64,000 nucleotides of DNA from Phycisphaerae bacterium (lineage in GTDB: Bacteria; Planctomycetota; Phycisphaerae; UBA1845), in NCBI GenBank assembly GCA_029260215.1, contig JAJDDQ010000076.1, forward strand, positions 42,455 through 106,454, in the 5' to 3' direction. The position numbers and the translations under genes are program-made. A model generated the notes under the pieces. It did not search any database. It saw only the letters and a program-made list of their open reading frames with translations, and was not told the origin of the DNA. This document shows, piece after piece, positions 2,957 through 23,418 of the stretch (position 1 is its first letter; each line of letters opens with the position of its first letter).

Positions 2957-3781
2957 TTAGCGTACGTTGGTTCGGCTGAACAGGACGCGACCTCGGTCGT
3001 CCTTTAGGTCAACGTCGGTGACAAGATCATAGACAAACTGGAATCCGAGCGATCGGGGGACGATCTGGTTGATGTAGCTGTCGACGAATTGTCCAACCTT
3101 TGCGATGGTGCTCTTGGGTACGAATACGACGTCGTACGGTTCCAGTATGAGGCCTGAAGCTTCGCCGCTTCGGATTTGTTTGAGATTGACGGCCAGCACA
3201 CGGGGCGCTTCGCCGGGTGTTGCACGCAGCACGAGTACGTTGCTTTCCTCGGCGGTGGAACGCACGTTGCCGCTTTGAATCACGGCTTGGAGCAGGGTGG
3301 TAGGTCTGGAAAGCGAAATCATCTGCGGCACGTTGACCTCGCCGCCGATGTAGGCGACGTGGCCAAAGGACCGATGCACAATCACGGCGATTTCCGGCTC
3401 CTTCAATTCGCCGGAATAGGATACGACCAGTTCGCCGGCCAACGCCGTCGGCGTTTTTCCCGCAACCTCCACATCGTGCAACAACGGAAGCGAGATCCTG
3501 CCGTCCGGCCTGACTTCCATACGCTGATTGAAATTGGGGTGAAAAGCGAAGCTGATGACGAGTTCATCGCCGGGCGCGATGGCGTACTCCCGCTCCTGCT
3601 CGGGTGGCTTTTCCAGTACAGCCACCTCGCGCACGGCGGATTGGAACTTCGCGCCCTCTTTTTTGGTATTGGCGCATCCCGCGATGACCCAAACCAGAGC
3701 CAAAGCCAATGTCAAACGTGCTGCATGACGCACTAGCATTCGTCCCTCGCTCTGAATCAAGCGGAAAATTCCGTCAAACAT
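2957..3781 (-). CDS. Polysaccharide biosynthesis/export lipoprotein (Wza-like, SLBB)
   Basis: Lipobox VIAGC; YAIAPGDELVISFAFHPNFNQRMEVRPDGRISLPLL typical of Poly_export; start overlaps upstream stop (ATG...TGA). Confidence 0.9.
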   Translation of the reverse strand: MFDGIFRLIQSEGRMLVRHAARLTLALALVWVIAGCANTKKEGAKFQSAVREVAVLEKPPEQEREYAIAPGDELVISFAFHPNFNQRMEVRPDGRISLPLLHDVEVAGKTPTALAGELVVSYSGELKEPEIAVIVHRSFGHVAYIGGEVNVPQMISLSRPTTLLQAVIQSGNVRSTAEESNVLVLRATPGEAPRVLAVNLKQIRSGEASGLILEPYDVVFVPKSTIAKVGQFVDSYINQIVPRSLGFQFVYDLVTDVDLKDDRGRVLFSRTNVR

Positions 3782-5078
3782 CCTTGAATTTCAACATCCG
3801 GCGAAGGATCGTACGGCGATTGGCACCGAGCCCCTTCGTTCCGCCAAGCTGGACCAGGCTGTGAAAGACCGCATTCTTGGTCACGTAGTTGCAGTTGTCG
3901 CATTCGCAACCACCAATCGATTGTATTCCGTTTTTCGGGATATCGCGACACGCCTTGCGATAGGCTTCGTAGGTCGGCCCGTTCCAAATCTCTCGGAACG
4001 ACTGCTTGCTGAGTTCCCCGAGCACGTCCTTGCATTGGCAGCAGCCGCGTACGTATCCCTCGCAGGTAATCAGGCAAAAATACCAGGGCACGTAGCAGGG
4101 CGTGTGTTCGTAAACCAGGGCGCTCGCCTCGCGATAGTCCAACTGCTCCAGCGGAAGCACGTCCTTGATATCGAGATTCGTGTTGATGCCGAGGCGGAGC
4201 GCTTCCTCCTTGGCCTCCGCCATGCAGGCTTCGAGGGCTTTTTCGTCGCGCGGGGCGTGCGGCGTGCTCACCTCATGCTTGAGCAGCCGCTTGAAAAGAA
4301 CCGCGTTCATGCCCGCTTCGGCGGCATGCTGGACGGCTAGTTTTGCGTCGCGGTAGTTCTGCTCCATGACGACGAATCCGTAGAGCAGATAGGGCACAGG
4401 TGTGCCTGCCCGTTCTCGCGCATCGGCGATGGCCCGTGCGGAGGTGAGGATCTTCTCGAAATCCCCCTGAGCGCTGCCGTCGATTTCGACGTGTGAATCC
4501 GGGGTTGCGGCGTTGAGACTCAGGCGGAGCGTTCTCACGCCGAGTTGAACCAGCGTCTTGGCCCACTCCTCATTCAGCAGCGCTCCGTGCGTATAGAGGT
4601 TGACTTCGATGTTGCGGCGGCGGAACAACTCGATGAACTCCGCAGCGTGCGGATGCAAAAGGGGTTCGCCGCGTCCGATCAGCTCAACGCTTAAAGTACC
4701 CATGCGCGCCAAATCGGCGGCCAACTCCTCAGCCACCTCCAGCGGCATGATCTTTCGACCGTCACCGATGGTTGTGGCGGTGAGTTCCGCGTCGGCGTGG
4801 TCGCGACAGAATTTGCAGGAGTAGTTGCAGGCGCTGACCGGCTCGACCTGCGCGTACAACGGGCCTCCGAAAGCCTTTGAGCGTGTTTTGGCGCCGCACC
4901 AGACTCTGGCGAACGAGCCGAGCCGGCGTGCGTGCCGTCCGAGCTTGCCAAACCCGCCGGACGAGTTGTATTTGACCACAAGCGGGCTGCCGTTTTCCGT
5001 GTGCGCCGCACGCTTTGGTCTCGCGTCCTTATCCAACCGAAGCGACTCAGAGCTGTGATCTAAGATGCCATCCGACAT
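3774..5078 (-). CDS. Radical SAM protein with SPASM-like C-terminus
   Basis: CX3CX2C motif CNYSCKFC; C-terminal Cys cluster CEGYVRGCCQCKDV...GGCECDNCNY. ATG at 5078 (MSDGILDH). Confidence 0.85.
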   Translation of the reverse strand: MSDGILDHSSESLRLDKDARPKRAAHTENGSPLVVKYNSSGGFGKLGRHARRLGSFARVWCGAKTRSKAFGGPLYAQVEPVSACNYSCKFCRDHADAELTATTIGDGRKIMPLEVAEELAADLARMGTLSVELIGRGEPLLHPHAAEFIELFRRRNIEVNLYTHGALLNEEWAKTLVQLGVRTLRLSLNAATPDSHVEIDGSAQGDFEKILTSARAIADARERAGTPVPYLLYGFVVMEQNYRDAKLAVQHAAEAGMNAVLFKRLLKHEVSTPHAPRDEKALEACMAEAKEEALRLGINTNLDIKDVLPLEQLDYREASALVYEHTPCYVPWYFCLITCEGYVRGCCQCKDVLGELSKQSFREIWNGPTYEAYRKACRDIPKNGIQSIGGCECDNCNYVTKNAVFHSLVQLGGTKGLGANRRTILRRMLKFKDV

Positions 5079-5291
5079 TATCCATACCCCCCTTGGACCG
5101 CCGCCGTTGAATCCAGCGCCAGTACCCCATCGACAGGTTTTTCGCGGTAGCGGCCCGACCCAAGATTGCACCGCACACCACCCAGTATCCCCCCAGAGTA
5201 CAGCATACGCCTGCGAAATGGTAGCGGCGGCGTGCGAATCAGGTCACCGTCGCCCCGGCGGACGCATCATGAGCGGTTAGACGTTTCCGCA

Positions 5292-7613
5292 TTATTCATC
5301 CACATTCCGTGTAACGCGTCCCGAGCGATCCCGCGTAACTTGCCACGAATCGCCATCCTCGAGCGCAATACGGTACGTGCCGGGCATCGTCGGCAGACGA
5401 AGCCCTCCGCTGGAATCAACGGTTACACGGGTGCTTCGCTTGAGTTTGGAAATCACCGATTCCAGCTGCGAGAGGACCGGTTTCGATCGTCGCGACGACG
5501 TGTATAGCCCTCCGTCGCGGTTCCAAGGCTCGCTGTCGGTGATGCTCCACCACACCCAGCCGATAATCTGCGGTTTGCTCATGGCGAGAAGAAGCGTCTC
5601 GACGGCGGCGTCGGCTTGTGACTGCTCGCTCCACGGCCCCCAGGCGAAGCCGTTTTTGTCGCCGCGTTTGGTGCTGCCGGGGAAGTTGCATTCGCTGATG
5701 ATTATCGGAAGTCCCAAATCTGTAAGGCTGTCCCAATAACGGTTGGTGTCGAGCAAATCGCGACACGGCTCAGCTACGTCGAGTTTGAATTTCGGCTGAT
5801 CCACGCGCAGGCCCGGGTACCATTCGAGACCGAACACGTCGGGCTTGTGTTTGGTCTGCAACAGGCGTGAAAAGAATTGCCGCGTGCTGAGCACAATTCG
5901 GGCGGATGGCGGCCTGCTTGCTTCCAAGCCTCGCTCCCAATCATAATCGTTCACCATCATTTTCGCCCCGGGCAGGCGAGATCGAAGCTCGCCGACGAGA
6001 TCGGAAACCATGTCGGCACGGTCGTGGAACATCATGTCGCCGTACGCGTTGCTGGACGGTTCGTTGATCGCCTCCCAAAGACAGATGGCGGATCCCATGC
6101 GCCGGCCATAGTCGGCTGCGACAGTTTCCAACTGTTTTTTTGCAGCGTTTGTGAGGGATGCGCCTTTCAAACTTTTGACATTTTTGGGAAGGCTGGATTG
6201 AACGATGCTGTGCGCCTGAAGCCGATAGCCCAGCTCGACCAAGTTGGAGAAACACAGTGTCTTATCCCAATTTCGGGGATTGTATTGGCCATCGTCGCCG
6301 ACGAGCTGGTCCCAAAACAGCGGGAGGACATAGAGATTGAAGCCGGCTTTGCGGAGTTGGGCGTAGTAGGATTCGACTTCTTTGGCTGGGGTGCGATCGA
6401 ACACGAATCCGAAGGATTGGCCCATGCCGATGTGGAATTCCGGCTCGATAAGCTGAACGGTTGCGACGGTGCCCGGCTTCAGCATGCCCGGCTTGGGCGC
6501 GGGAATCCTAACCGATGGCCCTGGTTGGGTTTGCGCCTCGACCACGCGCTGCGATCGGCTTCGGACAGCTTCACGACTCAGGCGAAGCAATTTGTCCAGG
6601 ATTCGGTCCGCAGCGGCTGCCTGTTGCTTCAGGGAAGTCAGGTTTTCGACGTCGGCCAGCTCGCGCGCTAATACGCGGATTTGCTTGGTATAGGGTGATG
6701 CGGAATCCCGGCTGTCGTAGTCTTGCAGGTGACGCAGGCGCGTGTGGGCCAACTCAAGGTTGAGCAAAACAACGCCGTCGCGACGAGCTTGCTGAACCCC
6801 CCTGCCGCGACCGTCGGCCTGGAGCCAGAGATTAAATTCAGAGCCAACGGGCCAAAACAAGACCTCAGCGACGGCGGGTTTCTTCATATCGAATTTGAGC
6901 GTTGGAACGTTTGTGGCCCGCCCGTCGATGTCCACCGATCGCTCGACCACGCTCATTGAGACGGCGTCCCCTTGCATATCGGTCAGAAAACACCACGCGC
7001 CCGCGGACGTCCCGCGCTGGACCATCTGCTGCAAGCTCAAAACGCGGCCATCGCCGTCAAACGCGACCAGCGGAACGACGTCCTCCCTGGCTGGCCGTGT
7101 GGACGCGGTTTTTCCGTGCGTTGACATGCCCTTGATCGCAATGAATCGTTTTCCGCGTGCACCGCCGTCCTTGCCTGAAAGATCGACGATGAACACGCGG
7201 TCCAGCATCGCAGGATTAAGTCGGCCTGTGGTGCCGGCACCGAACGGGTTCAGGTCTGCGATTTTTAAGTGAACGCGCTGCCAAGTGCGTGAAACGTTGA
7301 AATGCGTGAGGAATATCTTCTTGTCCGTCTGGTCGAATCGGATGAACAACGGCCCGTCGCGATCGCTCTTCACGTCGAAGGAAAGTTGCTTCATCGCTTT
7401 CCACGAACGGTTGGCTGCACAGGTGATGGTCGAAGGCTCTTGGCTGTAGTCGAATCGCCAGTTGAGTACGCGCGCGTTGCCGTCGCGGTCCGCCGCCAAC
7501 TTTCCGGAGAGCGCGACCCATCCGTCAGCGGGGTCGTCTCGATTATCGGACAAAGCGGGTTTGCAGCCGGTCAGGAGTACACACAGAAACCCCGTGCATA
7601 CTTTAGCGCTCAT
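5292..7613 (-). CDS. Secreted lipoprotein, GH-A clan (GH10-like) glycoside hydrolase with N-terminal accessory domain
   Basis: MSAKVCTGFLCVLLTGC lipobox; LWEAINEPSSNAYGD (acid/base-like), DVFGLEWYPG, IIISECNFPGS (nucleophile-like); N-terminal domain shared with the protein at 14479..17082. Confidence 0.7.
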   Translation of the reverse strand: MSAKVCTGFLCVLLTGCKPALSDNRDDPADGWVALSGKLAADRDGNARVLNWRFDYSQEPSTITCAANRSWKAMKQLSFDVKSDRDGPLFIRFDQTDKKIFLTHFNVSRTWQRVHLKIADLNPFGAGTTGRLNPAMLDRVFIVDLSGKDGGARGKRFIAIKGMSTHGKTASTRPAREDVVPLVAFDGDGRVLSLQQMVQRGTSAGAWCFLTDMQGDAVSMSVVERSVDIDGRATNVPTLKFDMKKPAVAEVLFWPVGSEFNLWLQADGRGRGVQQARRDGVVLLNLELAHTRLRHLQDYDSRDSASPYTKQIRVLARELADVENLTSLKQQAAAADRILDKLLRLSREAVRSRSQRVVEAQTQPGPSVRIPAPKPGMLKPGTVATVQLIEPEFHIGMGQSFGFVFDRTPAKEVESYYAQLRKAGFNLYVLPLFWDQLVGDDGQYNPRNWDKTLCFSNLVELGYRLQAHSIVQSSLPKNVKSLKGASLTNAAKKQLETVAADYGRRMGSAICLWEAINEPSSNAYGDMMFHDRADMVSDLVGELRSRLPGAKMMVNDYDWERGLEASRPPSARIVLSTRQFFSRLLQTKHKPDVFGLEWYPGLRVDQPKFKLDVAEPCRDLLDTNRYWDSLTDLGLPIIISECNFPGSTKRGDKNGFAWGPWSEQSQADAAVETLLLAMSKPQIIGWVWWSITDSEPWNRDGGLYTSSRRSKPVLSQLESVISKLKRSTRVTVDSSGGLRLPTMPGTYRIALEDGDSWQVTRDRSGRVTRNVDE

Positions 7614-7691
7614 GTTTTTTCGGGATCGTATCGCTTCGCGCATTCGGGGACTCCGCTGAATTTTTCACGATCCTCCGGGTAATTCTGTACG

Positions 7692-8753
7692 TTACGCGCC
7701 GCCGGGTTTGACGCCCTTGATCAACGTCGTGACGCCCATGAATCGGCCTGGGAGCATCCACTCCAGCATGTTGATGATGCCCATCCCCAGTTTTTCGGGG
7801 AACATCAGGAGAATCCGCTTGGACATGGGCACTTTGATTCCGAACTCGATCCGCTCGACGCGGAACCCCGCAACTCTCAGGTAGTTGGCCAACTCCTTGT
7901 GGTCCAACGGGTTGTCGAAAAAATCCTCGCTGGGGCCTGGGTCTCTGCGCAGGAGTGCCCGCAGGGCGATTCGGATGCGGTGAAAACGCTCGTATGGGCC
8001 TCGGTTGGGCGTGCTGATCAAGACCTGTCCGTTGGGTGTGAGCACGCGGAACATCTCGTTGGCACAGGTTTGGGGATTGGGCACGTGTTCCATGCACTCG
8101 GCGCTGAGAATCCCGTTGATGCTGCCGTCTTTCAGCGGCAGATTTTCGCCGTCGCCCAGGGCGGGCATGATGTCGGCGTTGGATTCGTCCTTCTGCCGCG
8201 CACGCACGAACTGCACATGCTCCGGAAGAACATCCACGCAGACGCCCTGAATCCCCATATCCGGATTCTTATTCAGGAGATCGAAGGTCAGGTAGCCCAC
8301 GCCGCTGCCGAGATCGAGTACCGTGTCGCCGCGTGCGACGGCGAGAAGCTCGAGCATGCGTCCTTTGGTGTATTTGGATTCGTACTCGCTCACCAGTTGT
8401 GCGACGCGCGGCGGATACCCCAGCCTCTTTTCGAGCCACTCGGCATGCGAGGTGTATAGGCCGCTGTCGGGCATCAGGTTCACGAATTCCGACGCGATCC
8501 AGGTTTCGCCGTGATCGGACTTTTGGCCATCGGCGCCGATATGGAAGCAGTAGACGCCGCCCTTGATCGGATAGCGCTCGCCGCACCCTCGACACTTCAA
8601 CTCACCCTCGACCACGCCGGCTTTGTCTTCGGACTGCACATTGAGGTCGATGGAGTCTGCGTGACACTTGCAACAGCGCAGTTTCTCTGTCCAGCGACTG
8701 TGAATCGAATTTGCTTTCTGTTCGTTTTGACTCATTTTGTTACCAAGACACAT
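7692..8753 (-). CDS. Class I SAM-dependent methyltransferase with N-terminal Trm112/zinc-ribbon-like segment
   Basis: CCKCHADS...CRGCGERYPIKGGVYCF then DTVLDLGSGVGYLTFDLL, LSAECMEHVPNP. Confidence 0.87.
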   Translation of the reverse strand: MCLGNKMSQNEQKANSIHSRWTEKLRCCKCHADSIDLNVQSEDKAGVVEGELKCRGCGERYPIKGGVYCFHIGADGQKSDHGETWIASEFVNLMPDSGLYTSHAEWLEKRLGYPPRVAQLVSEYESKYTKGRMLELLAVARGDTVLDLGSGVGYLTFDLLNKNPDMGIQGVCVDVLPEHVQFVRARQKDESNADIMPALGDGENLPLKDGSINGILSAECMEHVPNPQTCANEMFRVLTPNGQVLISTPNRGPYERFHRIRIALRALLRRDPGPSEDFFDNPLDHKELANYLRVAGFRVERIEFGIKVPMSKRILLMFPEKLGMGIINMLEWMLPGRFMGVTTLIKGVKPGGA

Positions 8754-9649
8754 AACCAGGGGTTGGCGAAACTCCCGCGCAAGACGGGCCAGCTTCCAAT
8801 CGTGTTGAAATACAAGTTTGCGGCTTTACAGCCGAGACGCTGCGTGAGCGTGCGGTTGAGTCGCAGAAAACCCCAGTACCCGCGAATGGGCAGGGCACGC
8901 AGCGATTCACACCCGCACTGCTCGACAAAAAGGTAACGGAAATCCTTCATGCTTTGCAGGAACGGATCCCAAGGCCAATGAAACCTGAAGGGGTTGGATT
9001 CGGTGTTTCGATGAAACAGATCGAACGGGAACAGGCGGTTGGGGCCTGTATAATTTATCATGCCTCCGGGTCGTGTGACGCGCACGCTGCCCGAAACGAA
9101 ATCCAACCGGGCCTGCTCGTGACCCGGTGACGGACTCCGCGCGTCGCCGTCGCAACCGACATGCTCAAGAACGCCGGCGGAGAAGATGAAATCGAACGTG
9201 TCGTCGGGGAACGGCATGGCTTGCCCGTTGGCGATCACGAGGTTCTGCGGGTACTTCCTCCGTTTCCAGTGCATCGCCCGGTGCCCCGAATCGACACCCC
9301 ACGCGTCGTACCCCGCATCGCGAAGCAGATCGACACTTTTTGCGACGCCGCTGCCGACATCCAACACCCGAACACTGCCCGACGGCGCGTTCGGGAAAAG
9401 CTCGTTGAGCAGCGGAATCAGGTAGCCCGTCATGGTGACTTCGGCGGTTTTCTCCTCGTGCAAAGCCCGCTCGACGTTGTCCTGATCCGCGAACCCTTCG
9501 CCTTCCAGGAAGTTCGTGTAGCCCAGCTTGGCTGTCTCGTAGGTCTTTTCGCAGCCGGGACACTGCCACCCGCGCTCGACTTTTGTCAGCGGGCCGCAGC
9601 AGATGGGGCAGGCGAACTCGACCGTGCTTGTTACGCACTCGTTGCTCAT
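8732..9649 (-). CDS. Class I SAM-dependent methyltransferase with N-terminal zinc-ribbon-like segment
   Basis: CPICCGPLTKVERGWQCPGCEKTYE; VRVLDVGSGVAKSVDLLRDAGYDAWGVD; FIFSAGVLEHVGCDG. Confidence 0.85.
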   Translation of the reverse strand: MSNECVTSTVEFACPICCGPLTKVERGWQCPGCEKTYETAKLGYTNFLEGEGFADQDNVERALHEEKTAEVTMTGYLIPLLNELFPNAPSGSVRVLDVGSGVAKSVDLLRDAGYDAWGVDSGHRAMHWKRRKYPQNLVIANGQAMPFPDDTFDFIFSAGVLEHVGCDGDARSPSPGHEQARLDFVSGSVRVTRPGGMINYTGPNRLFPFDLFHRNTESNPFRFHWPWDPFLQSMKDFRYLFVEQCGCESLRALPIRGYWGFLRLNRTLTQRLGCKAANLYFNTIGSWPVLRGSFANPWLCVLVTK

Positions 9650-10827
9650 GGTGCAATCATCTCCGGTTGGCGATCTCTTGAATGCGCGTGACGATGCGCC
9701 AACTCGCGGTAAAGGTCAAGAAACTGCTCGGCGGCCCGTCGCCACGTAAATTGCGCGACGCGATCATGCCCTTTGGCAATCATCTCTCGCCGAAGCACCT
9801 GATCGTTGACCACTCTGGCCAACGCGTCGGCCACACAGCTGGGATCGTGCGGGTCCACCAGCAGCCCCGCATCGCCGGCGATCTCCGGCAAACTCGTGGT
9901 GTTGCTGCATACAACCGGTAGTCCGTAGGCCATCGCTTCCAAAACGGGAAGACCGAACCCCTCGTACAGTGAAATCAACACCAGCGCCGATGCACCGGCG
10001 TAAAAAGACGGCACCATCTCATCGGGAACGTGGCCCGGTTGAATGATATCGTCTCGTTGCGGCGAACGGTCGATTCGCGCCTGCGTCGCTTCGCACATGA
10101 ATGTCCGCGTGGCCCCCAGGAGGACAAGCTGCCCGTCGAAACGACCCGACGCACGCAATTTTTCGTAGGCTTCGATCAATACGGGGACGTTCTTTCGCGG
10201 CTCCAGTCGCCCGGTGTAGAGAATGTAAGGCTGTCGAATCCCGCATCGCTCCAGGAATGCAAGGTCGGGTTTTATCGCACCATTGCACTGGAAATGACTG
10301 TCCAGTCCGTTGTGGATCGTTTGTATTCTCTGTCGCGTGCCGCCTGTTACGTCGAGAATATCCGACTTGGTGGCCTCTGACACGGTGACGATCATGTCCG
10401 CACGACGCAGTGTCCAGTAGAATGTCTTTTTCAATTTCCAGGCCAACATTCGCGGATAGTGCTCTTTGAAATGCAGGAACCCCAGATCGTGAACAGTGGC
10501 CACCACGGGGACTTTGCCCAAGAGCAGCGGTGTGACAAAGCAGGAGTGAAATACATCCGCCCCTATTTTTTTCAGCAGCTTTCCGGTCGAAAACATGGTG
10601 CCGAGCTTGCCGCCGGGTTTCAGCAACTGGCAGGACGAACGGATGGATGGCGGGAGGACGTCCATCGCCTCCGCACGCGCCAGCACGGGAATGATGCGAA
10701 TGTCCCCGCCGCGAAACTCGTCGTCCAACAGAGCTGTGAGAAGGCACCGCTCGTACACTTCCGTGCCGCCCGCACTCGTGCCCAGCCGTTCAGCCAATAC
10801 CGCTACCTTGATTGGGGCGTTCGTCAT
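9646..10827 (-). CDS. Glycosyltransferase family 4 (GT-B)
   Basis: ATG at 10827 (MTNAPIKVAVLAERLGTSAGGTEVYERCLL); ILYTGRLEPRKNVPVLIEAYEKL; ALVLISLYEGFGLPVLEAMAYGLPVV. Confidence 0.92.
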   Translation of the reverse strand: MTNAPIKVAVLAERLGTSAGGTEVYERCLLTALLDDEFRGGDIRIIPVLARAEAMDVLPPSIRSSCQLLKPGGKLGTMFSTGKLLKKIGADVFHSCFVTPLLLGKVPVVATVHDLGFLHFKEHYPRMLAWKLKKTFYWTLRRADMIVTVSEATKSDILDVTGGTRQRIQTIHNGLDSHFQCNGAIKPDLAFLERCGIRQPYILYTGRLEPRKNVPVLIEAYEKLRASGRFDGQLVLLGATRTFMCEATQARIDRSPQRDDIIQPGHVPDEMVPSFYAGASALVLISLYEGFGLPVLEAMAYGLPVVCSNTTSLPEIAGDAGLLVDPHDPSCVADALARVVNDQVLRREMIAKGHDRVAQFTWRRAAEQFLDLYRELAHRHAHSRDRQPEMIAP

Positions 10828-11717
10828 GTTGGGCGCTCGTGTCGCATCCGCCGACGGTTGATCGCCAGGTGAATTCGTGTCCGCCCCCAAAGGCCCACAG
10901 CCGCAATCCACAGCAGTGGGTTCAATCCGCCCCACCCGTGGTGTTTGTAGAAATAACGCAGAGCGCCGCGATGAAAATCCCGAATGCCCAGCGGGCTGCG
11001 CACGCGCTTCGGCTGGTTCTGCTCGACGTGCAAAATCTCGGCGGAGGGGAAGCACCACACCTCCCACCCGGCATTGCGCACGCGCCGGAAGAAGTCTGCA
11101 TCCACCCAATAGACGAAAAAATTCGGATCGATCCCGCCGGCTTCAAACAACGCCGAGCGCCGGACCAGAACAGCCGCAAACGCTGTCCAGTCGCACGGGA
11201 ACGGAGTATTGCTGTCCTGCTCCGGAGCTTTCAGAAATCGTCGCGTGATTGGGTTCTCAGGCCACAGACGGCTCAGCAATGTCTGTCGGCCAAACAGAGC
11301 GTTGAGCGGACTGGGAAACCGCCTTGCGGTCATCTGGATATCGCCGGTCACATCGCGAATGCGTGGTGCCACCGCGCCGAGACAGGGTTTGGATTGCGCA
11401 AATTCCATAATGGCATCGATGCACCCCGGCTGAATGATCGTGTCACTGTCGAGAATGAACAGCCATTCGCCCTTCGACTCTCCGATCAGGTAGTGCAGAC
11501 CGGGTGCCAACCCCCGATTCTCATCCCAGCGAGTCAGACGCACAGCCGGGTATTCTTCAGCGATCAGTTCGGGTGCGCCGTCCGTGGAGCGGTTGTCTAC
11601 CACGAGCACTTCGGACTTCCCTTCGGGCAGATACTCGTAGAGGCTTTTGAGGCAGCGCGAGACATCGTCCTTGTGGTTGAAATTCACCATAATGACGGAG
11701 ATTAAGCAATCACTCAT
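10824..11717 (-). CDS. Glycosyltransferase family 2
   Basis: LISVIMVNFNHKDDVSRCLKSL...LVVDNRSTDGAPELI...LFILDSDTI, GT-A fold motifs. Confidence 0.92.
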   Translation of the reverse strand: MSDCLISVIMVNFNHKDDVSRCLKSLYEYLPEGKSEVLVVDNRSTDGAPELIAEEYPAVRLTRWDENRGLAPGLHYLIGESKGEWLFILDSDTIIQPGCIDAIMEFAQSKPCLGAVAPRIRDVTGDIQMTARRFPSPLNALFGRQTLLSRLWPENPITRRFLKAPEQDSNTPFPCDWTAFAAVLVRRSALFEAGGIDPNFFVYWVDADFFRRVRNAGWEVWCFPSAEILHVEQNQPKRVRSPLGIRDFHRGALRYFYKHHGWGGLNPLLWIAAVGLWGRTRIHLAINRRRMRHERPT

Positions 11718-11720
11718 GAC

Positions 11721-13199
11721 TTACCCCATTGCAAGTGCGGACGCTGCGGTTGCATCGTTCGGGCCGACTTCGAGATTCGGCTCGCCGGCTTTTGCCGCAC
11801 TCATCTCGGCGGACAGCAGGCCATAAGCCCCGCACATCCCGGCGACCAGCCAGGCGTGCGGCATCCCTTTGTCGAACAGGTCCATCGCAAGACCCGACAC
11901 AAGAAAGACCAGTACGCTGATGTTCAACCCATGACCCACGCGGGCCATATCGGGCCTACCCAGTTTCACAAACTCCGCGATCGATCTGCGCATCTGACGA
12001 TGCAACATCCAATAGAATAACATCAGAACAACCAGCCCGGTAATGCCCGTTTGAGAAGCCACCTGAAAGTACGCGTTGTGCGGCGAAACGGCGTGTTCCT
12101 TGTCCGGATAACTGGTGAAATAATCGAAAATGCCGTAACGGTTGCCGTACCCCACACCGAGAAACGGATGGTCCACATACTGCCGCCAGGCGGCATCCAA
12201 AACCTGAATCCGCGTGGCGATGCTGGTTTCTTTTTTGCTGAACGCTGCCCCACTCAGAACCCGCTCACGATAACTCTTGGGCGCTGCGACGGCAAGCACG
12301 CAAACAGCCGCAAACATCACCATGATCGCCGCCGGTGTGATACGAATCAGTCGGCGCTTGACCATCAGTGCCACACACGCGGCGATAAGCACGATGCCCG
12401 TTCGCGCATAGGTGGCCATGATCGTGCCCAGGAAAACAGCCAGCAAAATCGGGGGCAGGAGTTGCCGCGCGTCTCCTTTCTTTGCGTTCATCCCCAAGAC
12501 AACGGTCGGGGCGAATACCAGGCAAATGTTGAGCGCGAGCATGATCGAGTGCGCACTCGCCCCGCTCGATCGTTCGACGTTGACACCGCTCATAACGCCG
12601 ACACCGACGTTCCGCTCCACGCCGGATTTTCTGTCGCCTTTGTCTTCCCATCCGTAGCGAACGTTGAACGCGGCTCGGGGTGTGAATCTCTGTACAAGCG
12701 CATACCCCGAAAACGCGCCCGAAACGAGTATGAACAGCGTCAGGCATATATTGAGCACTTTGACACTGTCGATCAGTTGTACGACCAGAAAGAAAAATAC
12801 AACCGTGGTCGATAGTCGAAAGAGCGCCTCGACACCGTTCTTTGTCTCCGCCCCACCGATGAGACTCAGTGCGCAAACACACAGGAACCCCGGCAGCAGA
12901 TACATCCAGGGGAGACTACGAAACCGGATTCTGCGCAGGGCGAAATGTATCACCCAGGCTGCGAGCGTCACCACGGTCAGAACTTTTGAAACCGTCAATG
13001 CCAAGTGCTCGGTCAGATACCCCACACGCCCCGCAGTCTCCATCGGAATCGAGCAGGCGGTCAGGATGAGCCCCAACCGCGGATCACGCATGATGAGCAG
13101 GCTCACGCCCAGCCCGCCGCACGCCCCCAGGACAAGGATCAGAAGTTTGGTTGTCCCAATCGCAGCCAGCATTATGACCTCTGCAACCTTCCGCGACAC
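11721..13199 (-). CDS. O-antigen ligase/polymerase-like membrane protein (Wzy/WaaL family)
   Basis: Multi-pass hydrophobic ORF; HPFLGVGYGNRYGIFDYFTSYPDKEHAVSPHNAYFQVASQTGITGLVV is the Wzy_C-type periplasmic loop signature. Confidence 0.87.
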   Translation of the reverse strand: MSRKVAEVIMLAAIGTTKLLILVLGACGGLGVSLLIMRDPRLGLILTACSIPMETAGRVGYLTEHLALTVSKVLTVVTLAAWVIHFALRRIRFRSLPWMYLLPGFLCVCALSLIGGAETKNGVEALFRLSTTVVFFFLVVQLIDSVKVLNICLTLFILVSGAFSGYALVQRFTPRAAFNVRYGWEDKGDRKSGVERNVGVGVMSGVNVERSSGASAHSIMLALNICLVFAPTVVLGMNAKKGDARQLLPPILLAVFLGTIMATYARTGIVLIAACVALMVKRRLIRITPAAIMVMFAAVCVLAVAAPKSYRERVLSGAAFSKKETSIATRIQVLDAAWRQYVDHPFLGVGYGNRYGIFDYFTSYPDKEHAVSPHNAYFQVASQTGITGLVVLMLFYWMLHRQMRRSIAEFVKLGRPDMARVGHGLNISVLVFLVSGLAMDLFDKGMPHAWLVAGMCGAYGLLSAEMSAAKAGEPNLEVGPNDATAASALAMG

Positions 13200-14452
13200 A
13201 TATCGCCCAGAAAGGCGGCCACCACTCCGATCATCAGCACGTCAAACGGCAGACGAAGCCGGATCCGCGTAATAAAGGCCGCGTAAATAAGCGCACTGGC
13301 TAAGTAGACAACAATGAAGAGCACCTCCACACTGGATGCCTTGTATCGCGTCAACAGCAGAACGCGAATGACGAAAGCGGCCAGCAGCGGACCATACGTC
13401 ATGAGCATGAGAATATCCTTCAGGCTCGATGATTCCTTCTGGGCGCCCAAAGTGTTGCGGTAGTTGAAGTAGTTCAAGAATTTCTTGAAATACAACTCCA
13501 CCGTCCGCATCTTGTTGTGCAGCATGTACTCGATGGCCTTGGTTCTGTAAAAAGCGTCCCGCACGACCTCGTTCATTCCCAAGTCCGCAGCCTCACGATC
13601 GTAGTCCGACATGTCCAGTCTCGCACCGGTTGTCGCCGTCGTGTCCTTCGAATTGCCGAACAGAAGATTTAACCCGCTGTTGCATGACACATAGGCGAAC
13701 GCATCGAAGACAACGTAGTTTCTCACGCTCCACGCACCCGCCGGTAACGCCGAAATCAGGAGCATGAGCACGAGCCCCTTCCAGCTCACCACCACCTTCG
13801 AGCACATAAGGAATGCGGCGGTCACCACAAGCATGAACGTGAAGAATGGACACGCGAGAATCAAGAATCCGCCAAGAATTCCGGGCAAAATGAATCGCCG
13901 CAAAGAATGACCGGCCTTTAACAGGAGCAATACGATCAATAAGAACACAGTGGCTGAGATGGTCTGCGGGTACAGCGTGCCCGCGGAATAGAACAGAACC
14001 GGATAGCAGAGAATGAGCACGGCGCTCATGCCAGCCGCACAAGCAGAGGAATAGGTCTTGAGCAGCTTGTGCAGAAAATAAATACCAACCGCCATCGCCA
14101 GGAAATTGAGAATGCGCAGATGCACAACGTCGGCACCACAACGAACCAGCAACGCGAGCAATGCAGGATAGCCCGGCGGTCGAAACGCCGTGAGATTCTC
14201 TCCGTCAACGGTGAATCGGCCTTCCTGTGCGATGTTCACCGCCAGCCGGTAGTAGTCCCGCTCGTCCGGAAAACGCAGTGTGTCGCCGAGGAATATGGAG
14301 TATGCTGCGCCAGCCAGCATCACAATCGCAATAACAATGAAAAGGATCGCCTGGGATCTGTGCTCGACGAAGTGGCTGAACCTCTGCGCAAGCGCTTCCT
14401 TCGCCCCGCCGGACTCGTTCGTCGCAATCGTGTTGTGCCAATTCTCAGTCAT
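13172..14452 (-). CDS. GT39/ArnT-like glycosyltransferase membrane protein
   Basis: Multi-pass; GDTLRFPDERDYYRLAVNIAQEGRFTVDGENLTAFRPPGYPALLALLVRC, typical of PMT_2 family. Confidence 0.8.
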   Translation of the reverse strand: MTENWHNTIATNESGGAKEALAQRFSHFVEHRSQAILFIVIAIVMLAGAAYSIFLGDTLRFPDERDYYRLAVNIAQEGRFTVDGENLTAFRPPGYPALLALLVRCGADVVHLRILNFLAMAVGIYFLHKLLKTYSSACAAGMSAVLILCYPVLFYSAGTLYPQTISATVFLLIVLLLLKAGHSLRRFILPGILGGFLILACPFFTFMLVVTAAFLMCSKVVVSWKGLVLMLLISALPAGAWSVRNYVVFDAFAYVSCNSGLNLLFGNSKDTTATTGARLDMSDYDREAADLGMNEVVRDAFYRTKAIEYMLHNKMRTVELYFKKFLNYFNYRNTLGAQKESSSLKDILMLMTYGPLLAAFVIRVLLLTRYKASSVEVLFIVVYLASALIYAAFITRIRLRLPFDVLMIGVVAAFLGDMCRGRLQRS

Positions 14453-14478
14453 TCCGAATTCAATTTGACAGCGTCATG

Positions 14479-17082
14479 TTAATTGGGCCGTATCTTTATC
14501 CAGTCAAGCCCAAACAAATAAGAATCGCCGGCGGCCTGATTGGCTCCGACGATCGCAACAAACAGCTTGTGGTCTCCCTGGCTCAGGCGATGCGTACCGA
14601 GGGAGAGCGTTCCGCCCGGTGTCACGCTCGGGTAGTATTGATCGAAAGTGTCGCCAATCTTCTTGCCATCCAACATGAAGCGGACGATCCCGTAGTCGTT
14701 GGCTTTGGTCAAGCGAACTTCGATCGCGTACTTGCCGGCCTTGGGTACGGGCAGCGCCAACGTGAGACGATCGCCCGGGCGCCCGCCGCCCCAGAATAGC
14801 TGCGCATCGCCGCTCCAATCGCCGTCATAGTTGAACAATTCCTGCCGCTCAGCCACACCGCGTGTAGTCTCAAGAACGCGCAACTGCTCGCCCTCTATCG
14901 CGTCACGCTCTGTATACGAACGCGGCTCGATGTAGTACCCGCTGCGCCGGCCAACGGGTACGGGCGAATATGGATCAACCCCGCCCGCGTCCAGATACCA
15001 GTACACCGTCGCGTCGTACAGTGTTTGACTTCGGTTTAGGAAATACTTCTCAATAACACCGTCAAAGGATTCCTGGAACGGAACACTGTCGGAAATGTGC
15101 CAGCGGTTGACGGAAATGTGACCTCGGTTCTCACCATCGTTACGTGTTTGACTGTGAAAGGCCTTGTGGAAAATGTCCGGGCTGCACCATGCGTAACCGA
15201 AATAGTCCTCAGAGCCTGTTCCAAATGTTGACGGAAATTTCTCGCCATCGACAAAGAACTTCTCATCCCCCTCACCCCACCAGTGCCCGCGCGGGTTCCA
15301 GATGTGCAGAGCCACGCCGCAATAACGCCCCCGCCCGCTCGTTTCAAGCAGCGTCCAGTCCATCCATCGCGTAGCCTCACGCGGCGCGAAGGCATCACGA
15401 TGCCACTTGACATGAAACCGCCCGAGTTGATTCAGCGGGCGTGTGGTCGGAGCGTGCGTAATCCGAAATGCGAAGGATCGAGACCGCGCACCATCGTTCG
15501 TCAGGGTGATGGCCGCTTTTTTTGAAAACGGCATATACCAGTACGAATAGAACCCATCTTTGGTCATTCCGCACGGAAGCGATCGGTAATTATTAACACC
15601 CGGAGCCGTCCCGAAAAAGTCTCCTAGCGGAGTCCATACTGCTGGGCTACGATCATCGTCCCAGGTAATACTCAGCGTGACTTCTCGCAGTGCAGCACCC
15701 ATTTCATCCGGCGGCACATCGACAGGTGTCACCTTCAGAGCGGTGACGGCACGCGGGCCTTTCAGAGTGGCCACTGTAACGGTCTGCCCAGCAGGACATA
15801 TGATATTGCGTGTCTCCGTTGCGCTCGCCGTACGCGACGATGCCGGATCAGTCCCGAGTCGATCCCGAAGAAAAGCGTCCGTAGCCACTAGAGCGCCCCT
15901 GCCGTCTTTGGAAAGTTGGCGTGTGAACGTCGGAACGATTGTGCCCGTGGGGAATGTCTTGTACGTAAAGTGATAATACATTCCCCAACCGGGGTCCGCA
16001 ACTATTTTGCACGACTTCTGGTAGGGAATGGGCACGTAGCAATTCGCACCCTTGGCTGAGTGATAGACAAGCGAAGGAAAATCGAAGGGGGAATTACGAC
16101 CGTCAAAATACCCGGCAAACGGAAGATCAATCGCCGGCTGATCCGATCCGTCGAGATAAATCTTAACGTGCCCTTTGCCGGGCTGTGCGGTCCAGATGCG
16201 CGTGATACAACCCGGGCCTGCCATTTCCGCAAGAACAGCCCGATCGCCTTCCATGCGAATCACGCCGACGCCGTCTTCATTCGCGCCCCAACCGGCATAC
16301 TGCGCAGTGTCAGCCGCGTAGCGACTCCGCCGATCGTAGCTCGACCACTGCGCGCTACGTTCGCCCGGCAGGGGTAAGACTGCCAATCGCTCCAGATGGG
16401 TCAAATCGCCTACAAGATCGGAATACGTCAGTCGATTCGTGTCGTTTGGCGCACTATTGGGAACAGGCAGGGCAACTGCCTTGTCCGTTTGAAGCAGCGC
16501 CTCTGTACCGACCGACATATCCCGCACCCATACGGTCCGTTCACCGCGTGCATCTCCGTCAGACCCGTTGAGATCGACAAGAAACACACGATCGATCAGT
16601 GCAGCATCCATCTGCCCGGTCGCACCGTCACCAAATGGACGAAGATCAGCAGAGGTAAGCGCAATGCGCTGCCACGACTGCGACACATCGAAATAGGTGA
16701 GGAATATCTTCTTGTCCGACTGGTCAAACCGTATGAACAGCGGCCCGTCACGATCGCTCCTGACCTCGAACGACAGTCGGCCTATCGCTTTCCAGGCACT
16801 ACCAGCCGTACAAGTGATGACCGTCGGCTCCTTGCCGTACACGATGTGCCATCGAAACCCCGCCACACCGCCAGCCTCGCGTTCCATCGTCAATCGACCG
16901 CTCAGCGCAACCCACTGCTCAGGACCGATCACGTCACGCTGCGGGCCAGCCGATACGACCGAACCCAACAGAAGCACAGCCGCAATCACGCACCGCGCGG
17001 CAGTCAGTGAAAATATCGATGTCCATGCCTCGCGCATCGAATGCACCCGTGAGGAAACAACTATGTTTGACAGTCGTTTCAA
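14479..17082 (-). CDS. Secreted DUF2961 (GH172-like) protein with N-terminal accessory domain
   Basis: SRYAADTAQYAGWGANEDGVGVIRMEGDRAVLAEMAGPGCITRIW, GTGSEDYFGYAWCSPDIFHKAFHSQT...GHISVNRWHISDSVPFQESFDGVIEK; signal peptide at N-terminus. Confidence 0.85.
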   Translation of the reverse strand: MKRLSNIVVSSRVHSMREAWTSIFSLTAARCVIAAVLLLGSVVSAGPQRDVIGPEQWVALSGRLTMEREAGGVAGFRWHIVYGKEPTVITCTAGSAWKAIGRLSFEVRSDRDGPLFIRFDQSDKKIFLTYFDVSQSWQRIALTSADLRPFGDGATGQMDAALIDRVFLVDLNGSDGDARGERTVWVRDMSVGTEALLQTDKAVALPVPNSAPNDTNRLTYSDLVGDLTHLERLAVLPLPGERSAQWSSYDRRSRYAADTAQYAGWGANEDGVGVIRMEGDRAVLAEMAGPGCITRIWTAQPGKGHVKIYLDGSDQPAIDLPFAGYFDGRNSPFDFPSLVYHSAKGANCYVPIPYQKSCKIVADPGWGMYYHFTYKTFPTGTIVPTFTRQLSKDGRGALVATDAFLRDRLGTDPASSRTASATETRNIICPAGQTVTVATLKGPRAVTALKVTPVDVPPDEMGAALREVTLSITWDDDRSPAVWTPLGDFFGTAPGVNNYRSLPCGMTKDGFYSYWYMPFSKKAAITLTNDGARSRSFAFRITHAPTTRPLNQLGRFHVKWHRDAFAPREATRWMDWTLLETSGRGRYCGVALHIWNPRGHWWGEGDEKFFVDGEKFPSTFGTGSEDYFGYAWCSPDIFHKAFHSQTRNDGENRGHISVNRWHISDSVPFQESFDGVIEKYFLNRSQTLYDATVYWYLDAGGVDPYSPVPVGRRSGYYIEPRSYTERDAIEGEQLRVLETTRGVAERQELFNYDGDWSGDAQLFWGGGRPGDRLTLALPVPKAGKYAIEVRLTKANDYGIVRFMLDGKKIGDTFDQYYPSVTPGGTLSLGTHRLSQGDHKLFVAIVGANQAAGDSYLFGLDWIKIRPN

Positions 17083-18266
17083 ACCGCCTCCGACTGAGAT
17101 ACTGAAGTCGCCAACGCAGGCTCCGCCCGATTCGACCTGCCCGTCAAAAGACGATCATAGACTGCCTCAAGTTTTTCCCGGGCAATATCCATGTTGTAGT
17201 GACTAAGCATCAACTCCCGTCCGTTGGCCCCGTACTGCTGACACAAATCGGGGCGAACGGCTGCCTCCGTCATCGCAGCCGCCAACGATTTACTGTCCCC
17301 TGGAGGTACGAGCCACCCCGTTTCACCCGGAATGACTGCTTCCGGCGTCCCGTCAACATTGCTTCCGATGATCGGCAGCCCCGCCGCCATGCTCTCGTAA
17401 ATCCCCGCGGGAAGCCCTTCCGCCAAGCTGGCATGGACCGTCACATCCATAGCCAAAAGTATGTCCGCGACGTCCGTCACGAAACCCGGAATGACAACCC
17501 GGTCCGCAATTCCCAGCCGCAATGCATACTGCCACACCTGGTCTTCAAGAGGCCCCTTGCCGAGAAGAAGCAGCTTGGCGCGTGGCTGTTTCTCCAAGAC
17601 TGTCTTCATTGCATCCATCAATACAAGATGCGCCTTTTCCGGATAGAAACGAGCCACATACACAAAAGCAATGTCATCCTCGCCAATACCGAATCGCGAT
17701 CTGATCTGATTGCGATCCACTTCCGACCGGAACCGACTTGAGGATATCCCCGATATCAGTAACTCTGTACGCTCCGCAGAGACACCCCGCGACACACACT
17801 GTTGACGTGTAGCGTCACAGATCACCGTCACGAGATCGAAATGGCGGATGTACCGCGCATCGATCCACTCACTGACGTATATTTTCAATGGACGTTTGAA
17901 CCACACATAGACTGTCGTCAAAATCGGAATACCGGTGCGCTTGGCTGCGTAATACCCCAGGACGTCGCTGCGCCAATCATGCGTGTGCAGCAGTTGTGCA
18001 TTCGTTTCGCGAATGATCCGCACCAGTGTATCCACAGCGCGCCGAAACTGACGCCCAGGCCACCACGGAAGATCCAATATCTCGTGACCGTGTGCCGCGA
18101 CGGGATCGCCGTACGCCCGTTCGATGCCGTCGCGGTTCTTGAACAGCGCAGTAGGACACCTGAACCGGCTCTGATCCATATGATCCAGCCAACCCAGCAT
18201 GGTCGTTTCAACACCGCCGAACGCGACGCTGTTTCGGACCCACAGGACCGTTGTCGGTTCAGTCAT
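17079..18266 (-). CDS. Glycosyltransferase family 4
   Basis: ATG at 18266 (MTEPTTVLWVRNSVAFGGVETTMLG); FVYVARFYPEKAHLVLMDAM; VHASLAEGLPAGIYESMAAGLPIIGS. Confidence 0.92.
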   Translation of the reverse strand: MTEPTTVLWVRNSVAFGGVETTMLGWLDHMDQSRFRCPTALFKNRDGIERAYGDPVAAHGHEILDLPWWPGRQFRRAVDTLVRIIRETNAQLLHTHDWRSDVLGYYAAKRTGIPILTTVYVWFKRPLKIYVSEWIDARYIRHFDLVTVICDATRQQCVSRGVSAERTELLISGISSSRFRSEVDRNQIRSRFGIGEDDIAFVYVARFYPEKAHLVLMDAMKTVLEKQPRAKLLLLGKGPLEDQVWQYALRLGIADRVVIPGFVTDVADILLAMDVTVHASLAEGLPAGIYESMAAGLPIIGSNVDGTPEAVIPGETGWLVPPGDSKSLAAAMTEAAVRPDLCQQYGANGRELMLSHYNMDIAREKLEAVYDRLLTGRSNRAEPALATSVSQSEAV

Positions 18267-18286
18267 GGCATACCCCTGCCCGATCT

Positions 18287-19669
18287 TCACGCCCCGGTTT
18301 TCGCCGCCGACAATGCACGCCGCGGCGCATTCCTCAAACACCACACGATCGCAACGACCAGCAACACAGACGCCACCGTACGCAACCCTACCGTAGTCCA
18401 GGCAGCCCCCACGATACCGCCGAACCCAACAGCCCACTTGTACGCGGGAAAGCTCAACGCGAGCAACGTCAGGTGCATCGCCGCAATCAAGTGAAAGTAC
18501 CGCTTGGCATACAATATCCCGACCAGAGGAAAAACGATCAGCGAGACCGTATTCCCCCAGTACAGAATCCTCGCCACCGCAACAGCCCCCGTGTACTCAA
18601 CACCAAAAAGCAACGGGATGTACCAGCCCGCCAGCAACACCAGCGGCAAACTCAGCAACGCCACTGCGGTAGTCAGTGTCAGTGTGCGTCGTGTCCACGA
18701 GACAAAGTCCTCGTAGTGAATTAGATGACAAACTTTTGGAATCATCACCGTCATGATCGTCACATTGCAAAGATCGACAATCGTCAATACCTGCCACGCA
18801 GCATTGTAAGTCGCGACCTCACTGTTGCTGGCCTGACTGGTCAAAACAAATATGTCCATCCGGCTGTAAGCCGTAAACGCGAAAGCAGCCAGCATGTTCC
18901 AGCCGCCGCATCGCCAAACGTCCGCGACGGCGGCCAACACCGGACGCAACCGCCAATTCTGAAACAGCAGCTCGATCCAGTCGCCGATCCCTACAATGAG
19001 CGCGCTCGTAAACAGGCATCCCGAAATAATCCAGATAGCCCGCGTCCATGTGAGGCTCCCCAGAAATAGAAAAACCAGCAACAGCGCGACCCTGAGCAAA
19101 TTGCTGGCGGGCTGAATCATCGCCAGCGTCCCGAACTCCAGCCGTGCCTGCCGTCGCGTGAGGACGAAACTCCATAGGCCGAACCCGAGAATCGCGAGCA
19201 TGACTCCCGGCAAACCATCCGCTAATTCCGGGCGACCCAACAAGCCTACAATGGCTTGCGGAAACGCCATCAGTCCGGCAAACGCGATCGAACAGAAGAA
19301 CACCTTCAAGATCAGTCCGGCGCGGAATACGTCGTTGGACCGTTCGACAGACCCCGCTGCCGCCTCAGTCCCCAACCGGATCATGCTGTCGTTTATGCCC
19401 CGCCCCACCAACTCCTGAGCCACAAGAAAAACCGCCAACGCAGAACTTACCAGGCCGTAATCCTCCTGCGACAAACCCTTGAGCAGCACCAAGCCGCCGA
19501 TAAACCCCAAAGCGGCGTTCGCACCTGTCGAGAGCACCATCCATGACGTATGCTTGAAATCAACACGTAAGTCGCTCTTCAAACGCCACCGCTCCCACCG
19601 TCCGCAAAATCTGATGTTGTCTGTGGAGTGCTCCGCACCGAGCGAAGAATCAACATTTCTTCTCTGCAC
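18287..19669 (-). CDS. Oligosaccharide flippase (Wzx-like)
   Basis: Multi-pass MATE/MOP-like; LKGLSQEDYGLVSSALAVFLVAQELVGRGINDSMIRLG. Confidence 0.85.
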   Translation of the reverse strand: MQRRNVDSSLGAEHSTDNIRFCGRWERWRLKSDLRVDFKHTSWMVLSTGANAALGFIGGLVLLKGLSQEDYGLVSSALAVFLVAQELVGRGINDSMIRLGTEAAAGSVERSNDVFRAGLILKVFFCSIAFAGLMAFPQAIVGLLGRPELADGLPGVMLAILGFGLWSFVLTRRQARLEFGTLAMIQPASNLLRVALLLVFLFLGSLTWTRAIWIISGCLFTSALIVGIGDWIELLFQNWRLRPVLAAVADVWRCGGWNMLAAFAFTAYSRMDIFVLTSQASNSEVATYNAAWQVLTIVDLCNVTIMTVMIPKVCHLIHYEDFVSWTRRTLTLTTAVALLSLPLVLLAGWYIPLLFGVEYTGAVAVARILYWGNTVSLIVFPLVGILYAKRYFHLIAAMHLTLLALSFPAYKWAVGFGGIVGAAWTTVGLRTVASVLLVVAIVWCLRNAPRRALSAAKTGA

Positions 19670-19717
19670 GCCGCATCATCGGCTGGACAACCCCATCAAG
19701 TCGCAGCTGTCACCGGT

Positions 19718-20443
19718 TTAACCCAGCCGATACAGAAACCCCGGAATAAAATACTCGCGCCCATTCAATACCGTCCCCAACAACTTGGCACCGTCGTAGT
19801 GTTGCAGTTCCTGCTTCGCCCTCTGCAGAACTTCACGACGTGTTCGATGCGCCGCAACCACCATCACCAACCCATCCCCAGCCGCCGACGCACGTGCAGC
19901 CGCAGTCGAAGTCAGAATCGGCGGCATATCCAGAAAAACAACTTCTGCCCGCTCGCGCAACTTCGGCATTAACAGCGGCCAATCAACGTTGGACAGCTCG
20001 GTGTCCTTGAAGTTTCCGGCGGGAACGACCGACAGCCCCTTCACATCGGAGGTGTGAACGACTTCCCCAATAGCCTCCCCCGCCGCGAGTTCCGCCAACC
20101 CCGGCCTGCCCGTCAACCCCACCATTTTGGTCAGGCTCATTTCCGGACTTGCATCCACAAGCAATATGCGACTGCGAATGCGCACGGTCACCAGAGCAAG
20201 CTTCAACAATACTGTCGTCGTTCCCTCCCCGTTCGTACTGGAAGCGAAACCAGCCGCAATGCTGTCATTCCCATCCAATTCCAGAAACAGACGATCGCGT
20301 ATAACCAGCAGGTCACCCGTCATCTGCTCAGGAATTACGAATGGAAAGCGGCCGAGGCTGCTGGCCTTCAATCGCTTGGTGGCAGGTTTCGCCAGCCCCT
20401 GCGCCTTGGCGGCGGAATCGTTGGAATCACTCATGGTGTTCAA
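19718..20443 (-). CDS. CpsD/CapB-like (BY-kinase family) P-loop protein with degenerate Walker A
   Basis: Position next to Wzz-like gene; FASSTNGEGTTTVLLKLA in place of the canonical GEGK[ST]T, LLVDASPEM, VVFLDMPPIL. Confidence 0.75.
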   Translation of the reverse strand: MNTMSDSNDSAAKAQGLAKPATKRLKASSLGRFPFVIPEQMTGDLLVIRDRLFLELDGNDSIAAGFASSTNGEGTTTVLLKLALVTVRIRSRILLVDASPEMSLTKMVGLTGRPGLAELAAGEAIGEVVHTSDVKGLSVVPAGNFKDTELSNVDWPLLMPKLRERAEVVFLDMPPILTSTAAARASAAGDGLVMVVAAHRTRREVLQRAKQELQHYDGAKLLGTVLNGREYFIPGFLYRLG

Positions 20444-20472
20444 ATGTCAAAGCCCGCGCTCGGTTGGACATA

Positions 20473-22044
20473 TCACGTGCATCTTTGCAAGACGCCGAGA
20501 ACCGGACTGTCCAAATGCTCCTTCAGTTGCATCTCGTTTCCAACCGTCTCGTCATTCAATTCCACAGCGAACGACCAACAGATGCTCAGGAGCATCGCAC
20601 CCGCGGCGCTCAGCAAAATATAAAGCCACTTACGCGGCTTGATGGGCGACAGTGGCATGCCCGCCGACTCAATAACACCCAGGTTGGCCAACCGATTCCG
20701 CTGACGGTCCTCGCCCACACGCGCAATCTCCGCATTGCGAAGACACCGCTCGTACATCGTGGTCCGCGATTTTAGCTGCCGCTCAAGCTCATCAACGCGA
20801 TACGTACGCTCGTTGAGCGCTCGCAGATCCACCCCAAACGCGGCAATCTGATTCTTAATCACTTCGCCCTCAGCCACCAACGCAGCACGCTCGGACGCCA
20901 GGTTGCTCAGACTCTGCCGCAAAGCCTGATGCACCGTATTCACACCCTCGACACGCTTGCCCTCAAGCCGAGGGTCGAGCCGATCCACCAGATCACGCGC
21001 TCCGCCGAGCGCCCGATCCATGTCTTTCATAGTCCGGCCAGCCTCGGAAAACTTCGTCGCCGTTTCGCTCCGCTGCAAGTCCAACTCCGCCGCTTTCATG
21101 GACACGCTCTGCCACACCGGATTCGCGACGGTTTCCTGCGACAATGTGATCATCGCCGGTTCCGAAACCAACTGAGCCTCCAAAGCAGCGATTCCCGCAT
21201 CCGAAGCAAAACGACGCGCCTCGATCTGGTTCAACCGAGCCTTGGCGCTAAGCTGATGCTGAACCAACAACGCCTTGCGAGAATCGGCTCCGATAAGATT
21301 GAGGCTGCTCCTGGCCTCCGCCATCTCCTTTTCGAGATTCTCCACAGCCGACCTGGCGACCTCCGCCTGCTCCACATAGAACGACAAATTACCCGTCGGA
21401 CGCAGTTTTTCGATGTGCCAACTGATCGCATGCTCGCACAGAGACCTCGCGAAAGCAGCGGCCAACGCAGGATCGCTGCATCGAAATCCAACCCGCACAA
21501 CATCGCTCTCGGGAATCTGCTCCACAACCAGCGCAGCCGACACGTCCGATATAAGCGCCTCATGCTTTCGCACCGCGATTTCTTCCGCCGTAGGCCTGGT
21601 CGCAAGCCCGACGAAATACTTCACCTCCTGGACGGCCGACCTCATCGCCCCCCGCACGCTCTTGTACGCAGCCCGCACGTGACGGCGGTAGCCCAGAACG
21701 CGATCGAAACGCTTCCGCGTGAGGTCCATGTCGTCCATGACCTGGATGACCAGATCCCGACTCTTGATAATCGCGATCTCAGTGTTGATAACGTCGGCTT
21801 GGCTTAGCTGGCGAAAGATGGGCGAAGACTGACGCGCATCCTGCGAAAGAGACAGCTCCTCAACATCGGGCAGCGTCCGCCGGACCAGCACCTTGTTGGC
21901 CGCCTCGAAGGTCGGCGGCATCAGGTACACCACGACCGTACAGATTATTGTCGCCGCGATGGTGACCGTCAGAATGGGCCGTCCACGCCGGAACAAGACC
22001 CTCAGCACGTCACGCACGCTGACGAAAGACTCTCCGTTCGTCAC
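20473..22044 (-). CDS. Polysaccharide chain-length determinant (Wzz/GNVR domain)
   Basis: Two terminal TM segments; AANKVLVRRTLPDVEELS; central coiled coil; PIKPRKWLYILLSAAGAMLLSICWSFAVEL. Confidence 0.88.
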   Translation of the reverse strand: MTNGESFVSVRDVLRVLFRRGRPILTVTIAATIICTVVVYLMPPTFEAANKVLVRRTLPDVEELSLSQDARQSSPIFRQLSQADVINTEIAIIKSRDLVIQVMDDMDLTRKRFDRVLGYRRHVRAAYKSVRGAMRSAVQEVKYFVGLATRPTAEEIAVRKHEALISDVSAALVVEQIPESDVVRVGFRCSDPALAAAFARSLCEHAISWHIEKLRPTGNLSFYVEQAEVARSAVENLEKEMAEARSSLNLIGADSRKALLVQHQLSAKARLNQIEARRFASDAGIAALEAQLVSEPAMITLSQETVANPVWQSVSMKAAELDLQRSETATKFSEAGRTMKDMDRALGGARDLVDRLDPRLEGKRVEGVNTVHQALRQSLSNLASERAALVAEGEVIKNQIAAFGVDLRALNERTYRVDELERQLKSRTTMYERCLRNAEIARVGEDRQRNRLANLGVIESAGMPLSPIKPRKWLYILLSAAGAMLLSICWSFAVELNDETVGNEMQLKEHLDSPVLGVLQRCT

Positions 22045-23369: not shown

Positions 23370-23418
23370 TGACTATTTCCTTACAACACCATCCCCGTCT
23401 ACGACTCTGTTTGCCCCA

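Follow-up and report, generated by a model that had tools for sequence, protein, structure and literature searches.

The window that we analysed, a stretch of 64,000 nt from a Phycisphaerae bacterium, contains a Wzx/Wzy-type exopolysaccharide (EPS) operon. Read from 22044 to 2957, the genes encode a Wzz-like protein, a tyrosine-kinase-like ATPase, Wzx, GT4, protein B and a membrane protein, followed by Wzy/ligase, GT2, GT4, two methyltransferases, protein A, a radical SAM/SPASM protein and a Poly_export lipoprotein. The chain-length determinant resembles the XrtA-system type. The features considered below are as follows:

2957-22044, minus strand: EPS operon with the genes for A and B, all genes on one strand
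5292-7643, minus strand: protein A, 783 aa; lipobox, domain, mid region and GH10/GH5-like (clan GH-A) catalytic part
7119-7520, minus strand: domain copy 1, N-terminus of A, residues 42-175; CIA30/CBM11-like module
14479-17082, minus strand: protein B, 867 aa; signal peptide, domain, DUF2961/GH172 and C-terminal CBM84-like module
14494-14826, minus strand: C-terminus of B, residues 753-863; resembles MiXBM, a xanthan-binding module (CBM84)
16510-16914, minus strand: domain copy 2, N-terminus of B, residues 57-191; CIA30/CBM11-like module

Two hydrolases of one operon have homologous N-terminal domains

The initial annotation described a nearly gap-free segment of ~135 aa common to A and B, and its coordinates hold: 7122-7523 corresponds to residues 41-174 of A and 16513-16917 to residues 56-190 of B. 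Within the domain, the two copies are 57% identical with a single one-residue indel. BLASTP aligns residues 1-174 of A with residues 16-190 of B (51% identity over 176 aa, 175 bits, E = 1e-49), and detects no other A/B match at E <1 outside this N-terminal segment. The first ~40 residues of the two proteins, which contain the export signals, have no meaningful likeness. A whole-genome search found two copies of the domain only, those on A and B; an ordinary CIA30 protein is encoded elsewhere in the same genome (G000:C66).

At the DNA level, the copies are 65% identical over 133 codons, with 43, 29 and 69 changes at codon positions 1, 2 and 3, respectively. This degree of identity, together with the excess of third-position changes, indicates that the duplication is old and that the copies have been under selection at the protein level. 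Identity between the copies reaches 80% in one 140-bp stretch, and we considered recent gene conversion as a possible cause. We rejected it because in this stretch the copies often encode the same amino acid with different codons (in two 20-codon blocks, 8 of 16 and 3 of 14 identical residues), and because the remainder of the domain DNA is 40-67% identical.

A and B are predicted exported enzymes with unrelated catalytic parts

The catalytic parts of A and B had been annotated as unrelated, and this was borne out: that of A is GH10/GH5-like, that of B is DUF2961/GH172, and the BLASTP match between them is N-terminal only. In Pfam searches, the catalytic part of A matches GH10 just above the cut-off (23.1 bits, E = 5e-5) and Cellulase just below it (23.0 bits, E = 6e-5). 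Its putative acid/base, E528, and putative nucleophile, E651, lie in the clan GH-A Glu motifs NEP and SEC, and the surrounding sequences, WEAINEPS and IISECNFPG, are invariant in the orthologue described below. An AlphaFold model of full-length A, made from two sequences, had a pLDDT of 41 and was set aside.

Protein B matches DUF2961 (PF11175) with E = 2.7e-75, and it also matches PDB entries 4kq7, 7v1v, 8ah3 and 8ic8. E604/E625 of B align with E270/E291 of alphaFFase1, the acid/base and nucleophile of that enzyme (PMC8605356), with a spacing of 21 residues in both proteins; the adjacent Asp and Trp residues of the -1 subsite are also kept. Furanosides are the substrates of those relatives of B that have been characterised (PMC8605356, PMC10115798); our guess, by analogy, is that the operon's EPS may contain a furanose. 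By sequence, the C-terminal module of B is similar to CBM84: MiXBM, a module of a Microbacterium xanthan lyase (7ehg), is matched with E = 8.9e-6 by whole B and with E = 6.4e-7 (residues 24-133) by the C-terminal module alone, and a Paenibacillus xanthan lyase (6f2p) is matched with E = 0.0019. NCBIfam has no family match for A or B. Protein A has a lipobox (LTGC, residues 24-27; PAGC in the orthologue) and B has an ordinary-looking signal peptide, so we predict that both are exported, a call read directly off the sequence rather than made with a trained predictor.

The operon and the domain have a narrow distribution

The close form of the domain is known from two genomes only and is missing from most planctomycete relatives; when we searched 100 relatives with the single sequence and scanned across GTDB species for peptide patterns, one further genome came up. 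This second Phycisphaerae genome (G040; isolate OFTM5, JAJDDU010000014.1), from another genus, has the same operon, with its genes in matching order from the export gene as far as the C-terminal third of B. The domain is present on its A orthologue and is 78% identical there. Within B the contig breaks off, and a search of this genome for the remainder of B did not find it. A is closer to the OFTM5 A than it is to B, so the duplication took place before the two genera diverged. With the SPASM protein as a marker, we found the operon in no further genome among 100 relatives.

Several neighbouring genes have features of their own. The radical SAM/SPASM protein (3774-5171, minus strand) lies within the operon and is kept in the second genome. 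The two successive methyltransferases (7692-9649, minus strand) each have an N-terminal zinc-ribbon-like (Trm112/RlmA-type) segment. Adjoining the operon are two tandem paralogues (22278-24528, minus strand) with an N-terminal cupredoxin-like stretch, DLTVTVGDSVRWVWxDGFHNVESG, and a small exported protein (24579-25409, minus strand) has a CNVHDVCYG motif similar to that of secreted phospholipase A2. A second DUF2961/GH172 protein, of 1156 aa with inserted repeated beta domains, is encoded on the plus strand (29789-33259) and has an orthologue in the second genome (G040:C360).

More distant relatives of the domain are found on other enzymes. A class-level profile search to E = 1 returned only weak matches besides the known copies, among them one (G218) that is CIA30-like by eye and non-significant by itself. 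At the phylum level, a search found a full-length homologue in genome G625 (E = 2.3e-8; direct BLASTP, 1e-5), carried by a 528-aa exported protein that has a weakly GH42-like (GH-A-like) barrel and lies outside any EPS locus. In another genome, G771, the C-terminal domain of a GH5 cellulase is weakly linked to the domain (E = 6.7e-5). A five-sequence profile that includes both has matches in 12 of 351 genomes, on proteins including GH5 cellulases and an acetyl xylan esterase; two of the matches are Pfam CIA30 or CBM_11 domains above the cut-off, and one GH5 cellulase with a relative of the domain has a weak CBM30 match (E = 0.009). The initial annotation had proposed looking for the domain in other EPS loci: one such locus was found, in the OFTM5 genome, where the domain is on A, but the domain also occurs outside EPS loci, in G625. 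EPS specificity would thus be at most a trait of the A/B branch.

Fold and profile comparisons link the domain to CIA30 and CBM11

The domain itself scores below the cut-off of every curated Pfam family. The best Pfam match is CBM_11 (PF03425; 12.4 bits, E = 0.16, cut-off 27 bits), for the A copy only, and CIA30 (PF08547) matches none of three domain copies up to E = 10. Direct sequence searches of the PDB gave chance Hcp1 matches only. An AlphaFold model of the domain, a check suggested at the outset, is a beta-sandwich of eight strands predicted with moderate confidence (three sequences; mean pLDDT 66, core about 80). In a Foldseek search of the PDB, CtCBM11 occupies ranks 1-4 (E = 8e-6 to 4e-4; 6r3m and 1v0a both at 8e-6), followed by CBM-like domains of GH50 agarases, the laminarin-binding X584, NDUFAF1/CIA30 (7zkp, E = 8.5e-4), CBM29 and CBM30 (both around E = 1e-3). 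TM-scores of these fold matches are 0.5-0.6.

We also compared profiles with hhalign, using CIA30 and CBM11 alignments built from planctomycete genomes. The three close copies gave probabilities of 35% for CIA30 and 34% for CBM11 (scores 29-30). Addition of the G625 homologue raised these to 62% and 43%, and five sequences, with G771 added, gave 93% and 75% (scores 47 and 37), a result that depends on this one weakly linked member. The best score among the reversed controls and 100 column-shuffled ones was 21, and shuffled or unrelated alignments had probabilities of <=3%. These profile links, and relatives that include Pfam CIA30 and CBM_11 stretches, place the domain in the CIA30/CBM11 superfamily. 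We consider it well supported, on fold and profile evidence of moderate strength, that the domain is a divergent branch of this superfamily, in line with the early guess of a jelly-roll/CIA30-like carbohydrate-binding domain. A factor that assembles complex I also has the CIA30 fold, so the fold is no proof of sugar binding.

The domain is an added module on GH172

We examined GH172 homologues at 20 loci from relatives. Sixteen of them align with the core of B from its first residues (B residue 216 on); none of these 16 has the domain, and the stretch preceding the core is signal-peptide- or lipobox-like. The homologues without the domain are 34-40% identical to B, and none of the 20 loci is near homologues of the EPS genes. 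The CBM84-like C-terminal module of B is present in 17 of the 20, and, judging from sequence, the pairing of GH172 with a CBM84-like module is a common planctomycete protein. The 16 homologues lacking the domain show that it is an added module, gained by the EPS-operon version of this protein. This pattern is the strongest evidence tying the module to the EPS locus; a simple fusion is also compatible with it.

Discussion

We propose, as the probable explanation, that a lineage-specific CIA30/CBM11-type carbohydrate-binding module directs two hydrolases to the operon's own EPS. Joined to A and B just after their export signals, a beta-sandwich module of the CIA30/CBM11/CBM30 superfamily would bind the polysaccharide made by their own operon and would hold A, a GH10/GH5-like lipoprotein, and B, an exported GH172, on the polymer, which the two enzymes may trim, shorten or release during or after export. 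Co-targeting of A and B to the same polymer is plausible; glycan binding, the identity of the ligand and the role in polymer processing are what we infer. Support for the EPS reading comes from the retention of the operon in a second genus, the presence of relatives on glycan-active enzymes and the predicted export of A and B, whereas the moderate model (pLDDT 66), the lack of a Pfam family and the G625 homologue outside EPS loci count against sugar targeting. EPS operons often encode glycosidases, such as PgaB (PMC5933820) and those of Pel (PMC9894940), and may include CBM-bearing polymer-modifying enzymes, such as PelADA (PMC13254593). CBM84 modules, together with predicted CBM11 modules, are present on enzymes that degrade xanthan (PMC10881899).

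The domain could instead serve in protein-protein docking and anchor A and B to a shared part of the export machinery, or one enzyme to the other. NDUFAF1, which functions in complex I assembly, is in the fold set, CIA30 is the best profile match, A and B are in one operon, and the strongest conservation falls in a charged stretch, SDRDGPLFIRFDQ(T/S)DKKIFLT, without an obvious aromatic platform. Nonetheless, the best fold matches are carbohydrate-binding modules, and planctomycete relatives sit on glycan-active enzymes beyond EPS operons, such that we regard docking as unlikely. It is also rather improbable that A and B are catabolic scavengers of external polysaccharides, with the module targeting a foreign glycan: their genes lie inside one same-strand operon that is also found in a second genus, even though relatives often encode GH172 homologues with the CBM84-like C-terminus at loci that lack EPS genes, and the C-terminus of B is like a xanthan-binding module. 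Least probable, in our view, is that the domain stabilises each enzyme or forms part of its structure by packing against the catalytic domain, as in GH50 agarases, and has no targeting role. The CBM-like domains of GH50 exo-agarases do rank high among the fold matches, but the domain occurs on two unrelated catalytic folds and is dispensed with by GH172 homologues at 34-40% identity.

Returning to a module that directs A and B to the EPS, a more specific version, which we offer tentatively and hold to be somewhat doubtful, is that the domain is the first of a new CBM family in the CIA30/CBM11 superfamily, with an uncharacterised planctomycete EPS, possibly one that contains a furanose, as its ligand. 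Duplication of this single module inside the operon would then bring both an endo-type GH-A enzyme and a GH172 to the nascent polymer. If targeting to the EPS is correct, the module would offer a ready probe for a planctomycete exopolysaccharide that is as yet uncharacterised, B would count as a GH172 that acts in EPS processing rather than in scavenging, and CIA30/CBM11-type modules would be extended to GH172 and to EPS operons, with no new kind of system established.

Comparison with known systems

CBM11 (PF03425; CtCBM11, 1v0a/6r3m) is the best fold match, is likewise an accessory domain of exported glycoside hydrolases, and has profile probabilities of 34-75%; however, it is only about 10% identical to the domain, which is shorter (~134 aa, as against 170-182 aa) and below the Pfam cut-off. 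Typical of CBM11 is an aromatic cleft that binds beta-1,3-1,4-glucan. CIA30 (PF08547; NDUFAF1, 7zkp) is a fold match (E = 8.5e-4) and the best profile link (93% with five sequences), but the domain falls below the Pfam report level for CIA30 and is found on exported glycosidases, whereas NDUFAF1 is a mitochondrial assembly factor. CBM30 and CBM29 are fold matches around E = 1e-3, at low identity and with the cut-off missed. Relative to characterised GH172/DUF2961 enzymes (alphaFFase1, DgGH172), B keeps the catalytic domain, both glutamates and the -1 subsite Trp/Asp, but differs in its additional N-terminal module and its CBM84-like C-terminus. Lastly, PelADA, which is encoded in the pel operon of B. 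cereus, resembles A and B in that an EPS operon supplies a polymer-modifying enzyme together with a carbohydrate-binding module on the same protein (PMC13254593). The module of PelADA, CBM114, has an alpha/beta/alpha architecture, however, and its catalytic activity is deacetylation.
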